From: a virus
DNA: 32,649 nt
IMG/VR virus record: IMGVR_UViG_3300028274_000028
Location: 1-32,649 of that record
Reading direction: 5' to 3' (one strand)
Numbering within the stretch: position 1 is the stretch's first letter; the number at the start of each line of letters is the position of its first letter. A program made the translations under genes and the position numbers. The notes below the pieces were generated by a model. The model saw only the letters and a program-made list of their open reading frames with translations. It made no database searches and was not told where the DNA came from. Positions 3,203 through 11,976 of the stretch are shown here, one piece after another.

Positions 3203-3434
3203 ACGAAGACAAACACAGATTCCAGGCTACGAGGGATATGTATCTGACTGGAGCAACGGCGTACTTGATGAGTCAGGTACTACTTTGGTACGGTCAATTC
3301 AAAGGGTCATCAACGAAGCCTGTACCAACCTTGACATGGTGAGTACTTACGATGATGCTAATAAACTTGCATCAACAATTATGGAGGCAGTTGAACAGTA
3401 TCGTGAGCACATTAAGAATTACCCTGATTTCTAA
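3195..3434 (+). CDS. hypothetical protein
   Basis: 79 residues starting MAKRRQTQIPGYEGYVSDW, mostly helical afterwards. The start at 3195 (GGAGGAAGCCA upstream) is preferred over the longer ORF from 3138, which only overlaps the previous gene more. No family recognised. Confidence 0.65.
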   Translation: MAKRRQTQIPGYEGYVSDWSNGVLDESGTTLVRSIQRVINEACTNLDMVSTYDDANKLASTIMEAVEQYREHIKNYPDF

Positions 3435-3445
3435 GGAGGCGAGTA

Positions 3446-3649
3446 ATGAATAAAGCAGAACTAACACACATGATACTTATGGGGCAGGAAGTATTTACTG
3501 ATGGTGTGTATGTCGGCACTGAGGAGCAATGGTTGAAAAAGTGGCGTAAGCATGAGGGTGGATTAAAGCGAACAGATGCTAGTATTATGGGAGTCGTTAA
3601 GGCAAACGCACTAGATGTAATCCAGCTAGAAGTATTGGAGGATGAGTGA
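3446..3649 (+). CDS. hypothetical protein
   Basis: 67 residues preceded by the strong site AAGGAGG. Short alpha/beta pattern (MNKAELTHMILMGQEVFTDG at the start, then YVGTEEQWLKKW). Stop overlaps the next ATG (TGATG). Function unknown. Confidence 0.65.
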   Translation: MNKAELTHMILMGQEVFTDGVYVGTEEQWLKKWRKHEGGLKRTDASIMGVVKANALDVIQLEVLEDE

Positions 3650-3867
3650 TGAAACTTAAAAATCCAATGATGCTTTACGGCAGAACTATATCACATGTTA
3701 TCATCTACGAGGAGGAGCGAGACGGCAACTTCGTAATAGGCTATGTAGACGAGGCTGAGTTTGATGATGATGGCTCTGACTTGAACGAGGACTCACTTGA
3801 AATGCTGAACGCTAAGTACTCTGACTACATTGATGAGCTGGCTTACGAGTGGGGCTGTGGAGAATGA
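3649..3867 (+). CDS. acidic hypothetical protein
   Basis: 72 residues, strongly acidic (FDDDGSDLNEDSLE), with a strand-rich first half. ATG 3649 overlaps the previous stop; a GTG at 3646 is also possible. Small acidic phage proteins are sometimes DNA mimics or host-protein inhibitors, but nothing here identifies such a role. Confidence 0.6.
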   Translation: MKLKNPMMLYGRTISHVIIYEEERDGNFVIGYVDEAEFDDDGSDLNEDSLEMLNAKYSDYIDELAYEWGCGE

Positions 3868-4121
3868 AGCAAAGGCACATGGAAACATTAGCTGGGATTG
3901 TTGAGGCACTGGATGAGCATAGGACAAAACGCGACCGCTATGTAACTTTTCATGTTAAGTTTTTTAGCAACGGTGGAACTGCAGTAGTGATTAACACTGG
4001 GTTCAAAAATAATCTTATCTGTTTCTTGGACGACACAGAGGCTATTGATAAACACCTGAAATCACTCAAGGAGGGAAAGTTAAATGAATGTATCAGGAAA
4101 ACTATCCGATGCGACTCTTGA
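3864..4121 (+). CDS. hypothetical protein
   Basis: 85 residues (MKQRHMETLAGIVEALDEHR start) with an amphipathic helix then beta-strands (YVTFHVKFFSNGGTAVVINT). The ATG overlaps the previous stop (ATGA), so translation is probably coupled. The last 38 nt overlap the next gene. Function unknown. Confidence 0.6.
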   Translation: MKQRHMETLAGIVEALDEHRTKRDRYVTFHVKFFSNGGTAVVINTGFKNNLICFLDDTEAIDKHLKSLKEGKLNECIRKTIRCDS

Positions 4122-4269
4122 GCAACTACAGAAAATGCACGATGAGATTGAGGCTACTGCGGTGTTATTAAATATGAACGGTGAGCTAAATGAGGCGCAA
4201 GCTATCAGGATTGAGGCAGAGCTACAAATTATCAGGTTGGCAATGGAGCGGAAATCCGCAGAGAAATAA
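4084..4269 (+). CDS. small coiled-coil-like hypothetical protein
   Basis: 61 residues, almost entirely helical with heptad-like spacing (LEQLQKMHDEIEATAVLL, then AIRIEAELQIIRLAMERK). The strong site AAGGAGGG lies inside the previous gene. Possibly an oligomeric adaptor; no function assigned. Confidence 0.6.
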   Translation: MNVSGKLSDATLEQLQKMHDEIEATAVLLNMNGELNEAQAIRIEAELQIIRLAMERKSAEK

Positions 4270-7787: not shown

Positions 7788-8287
7788 AATACATAGGAGT
7801 TGACCCCTCACTTAACGCAACTGGAGCTGTGCTTCTTAATGGAGCTAAGATACAACAGCCCAAATGTATTAAGGTCAAAGCTAAAACAAAACATGGTGAT
7901 GCCATACAGCTTGAACATAGGTTTGAGGCAATCATACATGAGATGAAATGGTACTTCTCGGTTGGCGATGTACTGTGCATAGAGGAGAATGTTCTCAACA
8001 AGAAGTTTGTAAACATATCCACCTTGCACCAAGCACAGCTTATAGGAGCAATCATTCATCACGCAGTTACAAAAGGATTAGAAGTAGTGAGGGTAAAACC
8101 CAAGCAAGGCAAGAAGTCTCTAGCTGGTATAGGCAACGCAGATAAGACTGCAATGGTTACTGCGTCAAGAGCGTATGTTACTCCAACTGGAGTTGACTAC
8201 AAAGATAAAGCAATAGCAGACGCAATCGGAATAGCTTTAGCAGGAAGGACTATATATGAAACCACCAAGCTCACTACAAAAAAATGA
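7784..8287 (+). CDS. RuvC-like Holliday junction resolvase
   Basis: 167 residues, near the usual RuvC size. The RNase H-fold acidic residues appear in order: IGVDPSLNATG (Asp7), LCIEEN (Glu near 68) and the C-terminal DKAIADAIGIALAG. K/G-rich KPKQGKKSLAG lies between, as in DNA-contacting RuvC loops. Such enzymes resolve branched DNA before packaging, which fits Erf-mediated recombination upstream. GTG start overlaps the previous stop; AAGGAG lies upstream. The 3' end overlaps the sigma factor start by 32 nt. Confidence 0.85.
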   Translation: MKYIGVDPSLNATGAVLLNGAKIQQPKCIKVKAKTKHGDAIQLEHRFEAIIHEMKWYFSVGDVLCIEENVLNKKFVNISTLHQAQLIGAIIHHAVTKGLEVVRVKPKQGKKSLAGIGNADKTAMVTASRAYVTPTGVDYKDKAIADAIGIALAGRTIYETTKLTTKK

Positions 8288-9125
8288 CAAGAAACCAACA
8301 AGCATGGATATTTATTTCAAAGAAATAGATGCCTACCCAATACTCACCATTCAACAAGAGTGTGAGTTAGCTCGCAGTATCCGCAGGGGTGACAAGGAGG
8401 CACTAGACAGGCTAGTTAATTCCAACCTGCGGTTTGTAGTTACCGTTGCCAAGAAGTTTACCAACTTTGGTATTCCACTTGAGGACTTAATATGTGAGGG
8501 CAACATGGGACTCATTCGTGCTGCTCAAACATTTGATGAAACTAAAGAGTTAAAGTTTATATCCTATGCTGTTTGGTGGATAAAGAGGTCAATCCATAAA
8601 GCGATTGGCGACTATTCAAAAGCTGTCAGGATGCCACTTGACAAGTCTCAAGTGGTAAACAAAACCAAAAAAGTATCTGGCGTATTGCTACAAAAACTAC
8701 AACGAGAGCCGACTAGGGAGGAGATTGCAAAAGAGCTTGGTGTTTCAGTCAGCGTAATAAACGACACAGCTCCGCTTCTTAGTGACGGACTGTCGCTTGA
8801 TGATTTTGTGGGCAACGAAGATGGGGATACATTCTTAGACTTCCTTGAGGATACGTCAGGACACTTGCCAGACCATGCACTCGCTGTCGAAAGCCTTAAC
8901 GATTGTATTGAGCTGATGCTCTGCGACTTGACACCCAAAGAGGCGCGGGTGTTGAAGCTATACTACGGACTTGAGGGCAATGACGCTTTGGAGTTCAAGA
9001 GTATAGGGATAATGCTAGGCTTGAGCGGTAGTCGTATTCAACAAATCAAGGAAGATGCCCTAGAGAAGATAAGAACACTTAGGGCGTTTGGATATATGCA
9101 ATCTTATGACGATTCAATGGTTTAA
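8256..9125 (+). CDS. phage-encoded RpoD-type sigma-70 factor
   Basis: 289 residues containing regions 1.2, 2, 3 and 4 but no region 1.1. Region 1.2 is DIYFKEIDAYPILT (18-31). Region 2 runs from LRFVVTVAKKF to FISYAVWWIKRSIHKAI (58-117), with the strand-opening aromatics Tyr104, Trp107 and Trp108 kept. Region 3 includes QREPTREEIAKELGVS (149-164). Region 4 ends in the helix-turn-helix LGLSGSRIQQIKEDALEKIR (255-274). Residues that read the promoter differ from consensus: WWIKRSIH replaces WWIRQAIT in 2.4, and SGSRIQQ replaces TRERVRQ in 4.2. It should bind host core RNA polymerase and direct it to phage promoters, most likely late ones. AGGA-type site before ATG; start overlaps the resolvase gene. 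Confidence 0.92.
   Translation: MKPPSSLQKNDKKPTSMDIYFKEIDAYPILTIQQECELARSIRRGDKEALDRLVNSNLRFVVTVAKKFTNFGIPLEDLICEGNMGLIRAAQTFDETKELKFISYAVWWIKRSIHKAIGDYSKAVRMPLDKSQVVNKTKKVSGVLLQKLQREPTREEIAKELGVSVSVINDTAPLLSDGLSLDDFVGNEDGDTFLDFLEDTSGHLPDHALAVESLNDCIELMLCDLTPKEARVLKLYYGLEGNDALEFKSIGIMLGLSGSRIQQIKEDALEKIRTLRAFGYMQSYDDSMV
9043..9059 (+). repeat. 17-bp direct repeat, copy 1 (inside sigma gene)
   Basis: AAATCAAGGAAGATGCC, coding for part of QIKEDAL in sigma region 4. Identical copy at 10011-10027, just past the methyltransferase. Confidence 0.8.
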
Positions 9126-9140: not shown

Positions 9141-9299
9141 ATGAAAGTCATCAAAGTAACGAAAGAGTATTTTCAGACAGAAGATGAAAAGGTTTATTTC
9201 TTCGAGCCTTTGGAAAAAGAAATATCCGTTGAGGATATGCAGAAGATTGTGGACGCAAACGAGAAATTAGTTAAGGAGTTGAAAGATGGTAAAGATTGA
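9141..9299 (+). CDS. small hypothetical protein before the methyltransferase
   Basis: 52 residues, charged and helical (VEDMQKIVDANEKLVKELKD), with AAAGGAG before the ATG. Its last codons contain the AAGGAG site of the next gene and overlap it by 14 nt. It shares the repeat-bounded segment with the methyltransferase and may have arrived with it. Confidence 0.55.
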   Translation: MKVIKVTKEYFQTEDEKVYFFEPLEKEISVEDMQKIVDANEKLVKELKDGKD

Positions 9300-10011
9300 A
9301 TTGATGCAAGGTGATTGCCTTGAAGTGATGGATAAACTGATAGCAGAGGGTGTAATAGTTGATGCAATAATAACAGACCCTCCTTATGGGACAACAGCGT
9401 GCAAATGGGATAGTGTTATTCCTTTTGATGAGATGTGGAAAAGACTAAACAAACTAATAAAACCAAATGGTGCTATAGTTCTTTTTGGTAGTGAGCCTTT
9501 TAGTAGTGCTTTGAGAATGAGTAATATTAAAAACTATAAGTATGATTGGATTTGGAGAAAGCCTCAAGGGGTGAATCCATTCTTATCTAAAAAACAACCA
9601 CTAAATGATATTGAATCTGTTAGTGTTTTTTATAGAAAGCAGTGTGTATATAATCCACAAAAAACAAGTGGAAAACCTTACTCAATAACAAGAGATAAAA
9701 AAGATAGGACTTTTGAGATACAGAATGTAAAATCAAAAACAACTACAACAATAAATAATGGAGATAGGTTACCAAAAAGGGTGCTAGACTTCAAACAACA
9801 AAGAGGTTTCCACCCAACGCAAAAACCAGTAGCACTAATGGAGTATGTAATAAAAACATATACAAATGAGGGTGAGTTAGTTTTAGACTTTACTATGGGT
9901 AGTGGAACGACAGGAGTAGCTTGCAAGAACCTAAACCGTAAATTTATTGGAATAGAACTCGATGAAGCATACTTTGAGATTGCAGAGAAGCGAATCAATG
10001 AAAATCTATAA
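9286..10011 (+). CDS. beta-class DNA N4-cytosine/N6-adenine methyltransferase
   Basis: 241 residues. Motif IV DPPY (31-34) comes first and the SAM-binding motif I DFTMGSGTTG (201-210) last, with FHPTQKP (175-181) before it: the beta-class order. The middle (about 100-165) is the variable, target-recognising part. It would methylate phage DNA to evade host restriction; target sequence and whether the base is adenine or cytosine cannot be decided. The gene is visibly more AT-rich than its neighbours (long runs of AAA/AAT codons) and the segment is bracketed by a 17-bp direct repeat, both pointing to recent acquisition. No restriction endonuclease is nearby. Confidence 0.9.
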   Translation: MVKIELMQGDCLEVMDKLIAEGVIVDAIITDPPYGTTACKWDSVIPFDEMWKRLNKLIKPNGAIVLFGSEPFSSALRMSNIKNYKYDWIWRKPQGVNPFLSKKQPLNDIESVSVFYRKQCVYNPQKTSGKPYSITRDKKDRTFEIQNVKSKTTTTINNGDRLPKRVLDFKQQRGFHPTQKPVALMEYVIKTYTNEGELVLDFTMGSGTTGVACKNLNRKFIGIELDEAYFEIAEKRINENL

Positions 10012-10447: not shown

Positions 10448-10469
10448 GGCAGTTAACAAAAGGATAACA

Positions 10470-11072
10470 ATGTATGAGTTGGCACTATTTGCAGGAGCGG
10501 GGGGCGGCATCATCGGAGGCATGTTGCACGGGTGGCGAACCATTGGCGCAGTTGAAATCGAAGACTACCCACGCAGAGTTTTATTGCAACGGCAAGCTGA
10601 CGGAATCCTACCTGCGTTCCCTATCTGGGACGACATCTGCACCTTTAGAATCGACAACCAAGAGTGTACCGAGTTCATCAAAGCAATGCAAGGAATCAGA
10701 GAACAGCTTGTTATCACAGGCGGATTCCCATGCCAAGACATCTCAGTTGCAGGAGCAGGGGCAGGAATCGAGGGGGCAAAATCAGGACTCTGGTCAGAAA
10801 TGGCACGAGTTATTTGTGAGATACGACCTAGAGAGGCGTACATGGAGAACTCACCAATGCTTGTTTCAAGAGGACTTGCCGTGGTCATCAGTGACCTTGC
10901 CGAAATGGGGTATGCTGCAAAATGGGGTGTGCTGGGAGCTGATAAACTGGGAGGATGGCATAAGCGCAATAGAATCTGGATTAGAGCGACAAGTGTTTCC
11001 TACTCCGACAACGATGGACAAGCTTCCGCCAAAGAGCGAGAGTGCGCTGAAAAAGGAAGCAACGCAAGCTAG
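10470..11072 (+). CDS. C5-cytosine methyltransferase, catalytic part (frame A)
   Basis: 200 residues with the catalytic half of a C5-cytosine methyltransferase: motif I LALFAGAGGG (4-13), acidic motif II VEIEDY (28-33), motif IV GGFPCQDIS with catalytic Cys88, the following AGAGAGIEGAKSGLW typical of the family, motif VI MENS (125-128) and motif VIII HKRNRIWIRA (164-173). The frame then stops; the target-recognition domain and motifs IX-X are absent. These appear in frame B (10474-11976), which overlaps nearly all of this gene. AAAAGGA lies 5 nt upstream. Alone it should be inactive; it most likely forms an active enzyme with the frame B product, like known two-polypeptide enzymes such as M.AquI. 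A +1 frameshift fusion is the other option. Confidence 0.85.
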   Translation: MYELALFAGAGGGIIGGMLHGWRTIGAVEIEDYPRRVLLQRQADGILPAFPIWDDICTFRIDNQECTEFIKAMQGIREQLVITGGFPCQDISVAGAGAGIEGAKSGLWSEMARVICEIRPREAYMENSPMLVSRGLAVVISDLAEMGYAAKWGVLGADKLGGWHKRNRIWIRATSVSYSDNDGQASAKERECAEKGSNAS

Positions 11073-11976
11073 ACCGGGTAGAAACAAACCAGCTAACCTG
11101 AGAGACTGTGTACACCCGCACCAGATTGAGGCGTGGGATAATCACCAGAAAAAACAACGGCAGATGTGGCATACGCCAACAACGACAGCAAGCAAGCAAT
11201 ATGAGAAGAGATATCCAGATGGTGGTGTTAGAAAACATCCAATTCCAAATCTCAATGCAGAAGTTGAGGAGGGAATACCATATTCGGAGCAGGTGAAAAA
11301 TAGGTTGAAGTTTCCTACGCCAACAGTGTCCGATGTTGAGGGCGGTATAGTCAAGAATGTTGAGCTACATGAAGGCTCATTCAGCAGGAAAAACAAAGAG
11401 GGTGTTAGGTGGGGAGTAAAGTTGCGTGACGCTATTCACCATCTGGAGGATAAAAAATTATATCCAACACCGACCTGCCAAGAGTGTGAGCATCCAGATG
11501 CAACTCTGACTGATACTGGAAGAAGATTGTCAAAAGATGGCAACAGTAGTCATAGTTTGAATCTATCTGACACAGTTAAAAAATATCCTACACCAGCAGC
11601 AAGAGATTACAAGGGAGCAAGGCTGCCAGATACAATAGCAAGGACTGGCAGAAACCCAGAGACTAATTCGTTACCCGATTGCGTAGAAAATAAAGCAGAA
11701 TCAACAGCAGTGTTGAATCCTGATTGGGTCGAATGGTTAATGGGCTGGCCTATTGGCTGGACTGATTTGAAGCCATTATCCAGAGAGGCTTTTAATCAGT
11801 GGAAAGAGTCAGTTATTGACGGCAGTTTTTGGAGAGAAGATATTGCGGACATTAGTGATATTGATAGAGTAACAACGAAAAAGACAGACAGAGTTGCGAG
11901 ACTGAAGGCAATCGGTAATGGTCAGGTAGCAATTTGCGCTACTGTGGCCTGGCCTTTATTGAAGACCAGTGAGTGA
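10474..11976 (+). CDS. overlapping-frame methyltransferase partner with PTP repeats (frame B)
   Basis: 500 residues in the +1 frame relative to the catalytic gene, open from an ATG 4 nt after the other start; one AAGGA site is at workable distance from both. Residues 1-100 look like low-complexity overprinted sequence. From about 105 (SGQKWHELFVRYDLERRTWR, then LPKWGMLQNGVCWEL) it resembles a family of proteins found beside phage Dcm-like enzymes. Five repeats follow, roughly 40-58 residues apart: FPTPT, WHTPT, FPTPT, YPTPT, YPTPA. The C-terminus has NPDWVEWLMGWPIGW (415-429) and RLKAIGNGQVAICAT (476-490), which matches C5-methyltransferase motif X. It probably supplies target recognition and motif X. 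An internal start (TTG 10708 or ATG 10912) would give a shorter form. Confidence 0.75.
   Translation: MSWHYLQERGAASSEACCTGGEPLAQLKSKTTHAEFYCNGKLTESYLRSLSGTTSAPLESTTKSVPSSSKQCKESENSLLSQADSHAKTSQLQEQGQESRGQNQDSGQKWHELFVRYDLERRTWRTHQCLFQEDLPWSSVTLPKWGMLQNGVCWELINWEDGISAIESGLERQVFPTPTTMDKLPPKSESALKKEATQARPGRNKPANLRDCVHPHQIEAWDNHQKKQRQMWHTPTTTASKQYEKRYPDGGVRKHPIPNLNAEVEEGIPYSEQVKNRLKFPTPTVSDVEGGIVKNVELHEGSFSRKNKEGVRWGVKLRDAIHHLEDKKLYPTPTCQECEHPDATLTDTGRRLSKDGNSSHSLNLSDTVKKYPTPAARDYKGARLPDTIARTGRNPETNSLPDCVENKAESTAVLNPDWVEWLMGWPIGWTDLKPLSREAFNQWKESVIDGSFWREDIADISDIDRVTTKKTDRVARLKAIGNGQVAICATVAWPLLKTSE

Follow-up and report, generated by a model that had tools for sequence, protein, structure and literature searches.

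Two overlapping reading frames with paired start codons very probably encode a two-subunit phage C5-methyltransferase by mutual overprinting

The phage locus described here very probably encodes a two-subunit C5-methyltransferase (C5-MTase) by mutual overprinting, in which two proteins, A and B, are specified by two frames of the same strand and would act as subunits of one enzyme. The calculations performed on the locus and its relatives returned both frames as open and subjected to purifying selection, with a hand-over of dominance at motif VIII, and located motif X in one frame only, with repeated moves from A to B.

The window, i.e. the whole stretch of DNA analysed, is IMG/VR record IMGVR_UViG_3300028274_000028 (32,649 bases) and encodes phage terminase, portal, capsid and tape-measure genes. 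All the features reported below lie on the plus strand. ORF A (10470-11072) codes for a protein of 200 aa that stops without motifs IX and X, while ORF B (10474-11976), in the +1 frame relative to A, codes for a protein of 500 aa, the coordinates of both being those listed in the initial annotation of this DNA. The two ATG codons are 4 nt apart and have in common one Shine-Dalgarno-like AAGGA, which had been proposed to serve both starts and was located at 10460-10464, with spacers of 5 nt to the ATG of A and 9 nt to that of B. ORF B extends 904 nt past the end of A, where homologues are also present. Since three IMG/VR contigs with different sample numbers contain the locus in identical form, a sequencing error is unlikely, and a frameshift or pseudogene artefact was ruled out by these copies together with the conserved overlap. 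A separate N6/N4-type DNA methyltransferase is encoded directly upstream of the A/B locus (9286-10011), and a gene for a complete sigma-70 type factor with regions 1.2, 2, 3 and 4 (8256-9125) closely precedes both methyltransferase genes.

The openness of frame B was evaluated on 226 loci, grouped into 88 clusters below 80% identity, which were picked by frame A alone and hence blind to B, using the shuffling of synonymous codons of A as the null. Frame B was wholly open over the overlap in 87 of the 88 clusters, compared with 3.3 expected from the shuffles. The +1 frame contained 1 stop versus 370 expected, and the +2 frame of the same clusters 1125 versus 1000. A previous set of 78 clusters, in whose selection B had partly been used, had shown 3 stops versus 376 expected, and the canonical single-chain C5 genes taken as controls were depleted little or not at all (1-15 stops, nulls of 4-14). 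Relatives with an interrupted B beside an intact A, which the initial annotation had named as contrary evidence, were searched for in the 88 A-selected clusters and a single case was found (L139). In the same clusters, an ATG was present four nucleotides after the start of A in 61 of 88, with NTGAATGAG as the commonest contexts, and a Shine-Dalgarno-like motif preceded A in 68 of 88. The openness of frame B is not due to chance.

Selection was then measured on 65 disjoint close pairs by an OLGenie-like count in which isolated substitutions were scored by their effect in each frame, giving two values per frame, one for substitutions that are synonymous in the other frame and one for those that are nonsynonymous there. 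The count uses no substitution model and its exact values are rough: omega-A was 0.04-0.05 and omega-B 0.20-0.24 over codons 1-57, 0.05-0.08 and 0.39-0.66 over codons 58-115, and 0.07-0.08 and 0.22-0.24 from codon 116 to motif VIII, whereas past motif VIII omega-A went up to 0.22-0.64 and omega-B down to 0.05-0.15. The weakest single value was the omega-B of 0.66 in codons 58-115 (95% interval 0.42-1.39). As a control, 22 pairs of flanking genes showed an omega of 1.46-1.56 in their unused +1 frame, in large contrast with omega-B. Purifying selection acts on both frames, and these windows indicate that each protein is dominant in one half of the overlap and secondary in the other, with the switch occurring at motif VIII. 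The codon-level dN/dS analysis in the two frames proposed in the initial annotation gave omega-A and omega-B both below 1 and, together with the stop depletion, supported the shared region as genuine coding sequence in both frames. The suggested conservation of both translations at 10786-11072 was borne out as to the constraint on both frames but not as to its limits, since omega-B was already 0.20-0.24 in the first 57 codons of B.

These data also bear on whether B might be an unexpressed frame held open by the composition or codon use of A, a reading that is statistically refuted and retains a negligible probability. In GC-rich genes a +1 frame can indeed be open by chance, and the shuffled frame B was fairly often open for L051, L075 and L082. 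However, an unexpressed frame would hardly account for one stop instead of 370, a depletion without a comparable counterpart in canonical C5 genes, for an omega-B well below 1 when control genes gave about 1.5, or for the 904 nt with homologues that follow the end of A in the window.

ORF A matched the Pfam DNA_methylase family (1.2e-24) and carries the PF00145 motifs I, IV (PCQ), VI (EN) and VIII, in agreement with the fold of a relative. Translation and alignment located motif I, FAGAGGG, at residues 7-13 (10488-10508) and motif IV, GFPCQ, with the catalytic Cys88, at 10722-10736, followed by the EN of motif VI (E126 and N127, 10845-10850) and by motif VIII, HKRNRIW (10959-10979), where the alignment and the omega windows place the change of dominant frame. 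Residues P87 and C88 of motif IV and both residues of motif VI are invariant in the family alignment. The Pfam match and these invariant PC and EN residues support the earlier proposal that frame A is the catalytic part of the enzyme with motifs I, IV, VI and VIII. The AlphaFold model of a full-length relative having motif X in A (L016-A) showed a pLDDT of 79 and matched the catalytic part of M.HaeIII and M.HhaI, while its residues 170-209, between motifs VIII and X, had a pLDDT of about 39; this disordered stretch coincides with the region of weak omega-A. In the window, A also bears an insertion before motif IV (DNQECTEFIKAMQGIREQLV, 10650-10712, residues about 61-81), similar to those of L165, a Victivallales MAG, and L175, an uncultured bacterium. 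An insertion of the DNQECTEFIKAMQGIREQLV type is a hint, from sequence resemblance, of a Lentisphaerota-like host.

As for ORF B, none of the Pfam or NCBIfam models matched it, sequence and fold searches returned no PDB match, and a match to PHROG 1008, labelled 'DNA methyltransferase', was obtained (1.9e-29). Its N-terminal part (10474-10995; MSWHYLQE...KYD/WKTHQC/LPKWGM) lies over motifs I-VIII of A and showed an omega-B of 0.20-0.66 depending on the window. The AlphaFold model of B was mostly of low confidence (mean pLDDT 51), with the N-terminal 110 residues predicted as disordered and residues 116-155 as strands of modest confidence. Five PTP-type modules follow in the translation (FPTPT, WHTPT, FPTPT, YPTPT and YPTPA, 10996-11640), whose number varies among the relatives of B; position and variability, rather than fold, suggest them as a candidate target-recognition region. 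Downstream, B contains a motif IX-like segment, LNPDWVEWLMGWPIGWT (residues 414-430, 11713-11763), with the pattern LNPxWVEWLMGWPxGW, in a helix (residues 411-450) modelled with a pLDDT of 83-91. The profile alignment of LNPDWVEWLMGWPIGWT with canonical motif IX was in register (P 0.0017) but the match was weak (hhalign probability 15%), and we tentatively assign to motif IX this segment, which the initial annotation had overlooked and which has no equivalent in ORF A of the window. Finally, the RLKAIGNGQV sequence already described as motif X-like was confirmed in frame B at residues 476-485 (11899-11928) and corresponds to motif X of PF00145, which most relatives carry in frame A.

Motif X was partitioned between the frames among complete loci, with 313 loci having it in A only, 30 in B only and none in both. 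In 35 further complete loci the X pattern was matched in neither frame, and loose motif variants or frameshifts may be behind them. The start of motif IX in B precedes the start of motif X in A by 32 nt in 286 of 292 loci, and the overlap between A and B is co-extensive in most relatives, covering about 660-1150 nt. On the tree of A, 13 changes are required to account for the X-in-B state, and well-supported branches force at least 11 of them, indicating that the move of motif X from A to B took place independently in no fewer than 11 lineages. The window belongs to the X-in-B class, its A ending after motif VIII, and its sister L374/L024 has motif X in A; as X is normally found in A, the window represents a derived variant. 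The relocation of motif X without any duplication is as expected if A and B act as one enzyme.

Several loci departed from this scheme. Those with motif IX in frame A (L343, L098, L102, L104, L086 and L060) were set aside, as they resemble indels at or after motif VIII. In the pairs L101/L102 and L104/L162, whose A proteins are 95-98% identical, small indels occur in a C-rich tract right after motif VIII; A runs into the target-recognition region and motif IX in L098, L102 and L104, and in L101 and L162 motif X stands at the end of B. These indels could be due to phase variation or to sequencing. L354 (about 3407-4225) presents a B-like C-terminal part with PTP modules and motif IX, no detectable adjacent catalytic A and motif X in the other frame, and looks like a recombined or decayed copy.

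The same data allow us to weigh whether B, although translated and selected, might have a role other than that of a subunit, for instance as an anti-restriction or regulatory protein overlapping the methylase. The lack of a Pfam family and of a confident fold for B and the predicted disorder of its N-terminal half are compatible with such a role, which is nevertheless improbable when considering that A lacks motif IX, and motif X in the window, while B has IX-like and X segments, that 343 complete loci have X in exactly one of the two proteins and none has it in both, with repeated moves, and that the PHROG 1008 label is that of a methyltransferase.

A single chain was also considered, in which the ribosome would read motifs I-VIII in A and shift by +1 near motif VIII into B for the target-recognition region and motifs IX and X, B having no start of its own. 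One +1 shift near 10980 would indeed restore in the window the canonical order I-VIII, target-recognition region, IX and X. However, both the openness and the constraint of B begin with its first codons (omega-B 0.20-0.24), a feature that a shift would not call for and that disfavours a pure programmed frameshift, the conserved start of B at A+4 would likewise be superfluous, and most relatives, having X in A, would require a second, backward shift. We consider this explanation about as improbable as a B protein unrelated to the methylase.

The products of A and B most likely form one methyltransferase, a two-subunit function that we infer. In the proposed mechanism, one mRNA would yield two proteins through initiation at two AUG codons four bases apart. 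A, with motifs I-VIII, would be the part of a C5-cytosine methyltransferase that binds SAM and carries out catalysis. Motif IX and the candidate target-recognition region, both missing from A, would be provided by B, which in the window would contribute motif X as well. The two proteins would then assemble into one enzyme predicted to methylate phage (or host) DNA. The overprinting would be mutual, with A dominant and B secondary in the 5' part and the reverse in the 3' part.

The two-frame arrangement was detected well beyond the window. Searches by tblastn with A and with B hit the same places in phages of Acinetobacter, Pseudomonas, Salmonella and Vibrio, the two frames being offset by 4 nt there as in the window, and B is conserved as a protein across phages. 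In IMG/VR the relatives of B numbered at least 596 and those of A, retrieved with a profile query, at least 581, and 173 relatives were found among species genomes. The species genomes concerned belong to Pseudomonadota, Verrucomicrobiota, Lentisphaerota, Spirochaetota, Chloroflexota, Planctomycetota, Acidobacteriota, Bacteroidota and Thermodesulfobacteriota. The initial annotation missed a very large conserved family, within which the window is atypical. These loci are likely to constitute a widespread and ancient class of phage C5-methyltransferases, defined by two co-extensive same-strand frames with starts 4 nt apart, by a split of dominance between the catalytic part and the recognition and motif IX part, and by a mobile motif X. 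In more distant relatives, such as those of mycobacteriophage Nitzel (gp65), Bacteroides BU730P1, Microbacterium R1, Synechococcus S-H1 and Paenibacillus Sitara, the +1 frame of A likewise encodes a PTP/motif IX-like protein. Mycobacteriophage records matching A numbered 486, and in the one examined (L398, Nitzel gp65) the +1-frame protein is unannotated. In Vibrio phage 1.233.A, A has its own motif IX and no conserved B is present. A search for a single-frame relative uniting motifs I-VIII, PTP modules, IX and X found none, the candidate Phage C75C1 being rejected as another overlapping pair.

Although the double reading is kept in hundreds of phages and prophages, the annotation nearly always gives one frame. 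Seven close phage records have either A or B annotated and E. coli PT62 has A alone, so that none of these eight phage and E. coli records reports both, and phage methylases often appear as half-enzymes. Such half-annotation would mislead the assignment of methylomes and heterologous expression, and the family may account for C5 enzymes apparently devoid of motif IX. To our knowledge, outside small viruses it is rare for a long same-strand overlap to show measurable selection on both of its frames. If the proposed reading is true, double-stranded DNA phages would have in these loci, routinely half-annotated, some of their longest and most widely conserved same-strand overlaps. The hundreds of sequences, the clear switch of dominance and the natural moves of motif X would make the rules of overprinting and of subunit complementation directly testable.

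Our literature searches, restricted to open-access sources, returned no account of this two-frame phage methyltransferase family, and an earlier description elsewhere is possible. The motif splits of M.EcoHK31I and M.AquI are direct precedents, M.EcoHK31I being the nearest for its motif IX in a second polypeptide and M.AquI for the way its motifs are distributed, while the co-extensive overlap with paired starts, its spread, the measured switch of selection between the frames and the recurrent moves of motif X were not found described. The beta subunit of M.EcoHK31I is read in an alternate frame, and the split of M.AquI is essentially sequential. M.EcoHK31I (YGGCCR) consists of alpha and beta subunits, with motifs I-VIII and X on one polypeptide and motif IX on the second, its target-recognition domain being predicted in the larger subunit (PMC3404938). 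The same sharing of motifs occurs in most relatives described here, i.e. the 313 complete loci with X in A, and in both systems the second protein lies in another frame of the first. Unlike the larger subunit of M.EcoHK31I, A of the window lacks motif X and ends after motif VIII, X being in B. Moreover, B starts here 4 nt after A, is co-extensive with it in most relatives and contains PTP modules.

In M.AquI (CYCGRG) the larger subunit carries motifs I-VIII, while the smaller one comprises the distal part of the variable region and motifs IX-X (PMC3404938). The window shares out its motifs as M.AquI does, with I-VIII in A and IX-X in B, the tentative motif IX being assigned by pattern; unlike M.AquI, frame B here also reads across the whole catalytic part of A. 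A further two-subunit C5-MTase is M.BsuMI (YdiO/YdiP), whose genes are separate in B. subtilis, and the A/B region of Paenibacillus phage HB10c2 is annotated as YdiP. In the distantly related g59/g60 of Paenibacillus phage Sitara, B is in the +1 frame of A and both are annotated, but B starts about 60 codons inside A. Sitara g60 (L008, 2641-3348), which corresponds to the B frame, is annotated as 'g59 internal gene' with no link to the methylase. An out-of-frame ORF within a phage methylase gene is also known from the hidden HNH endonuclease of the ShiLan type (PMC11855218); that ORF is an inserted homing endonuclease, whereas the second frame described here lies on the methylase core and carries methylase motifs.
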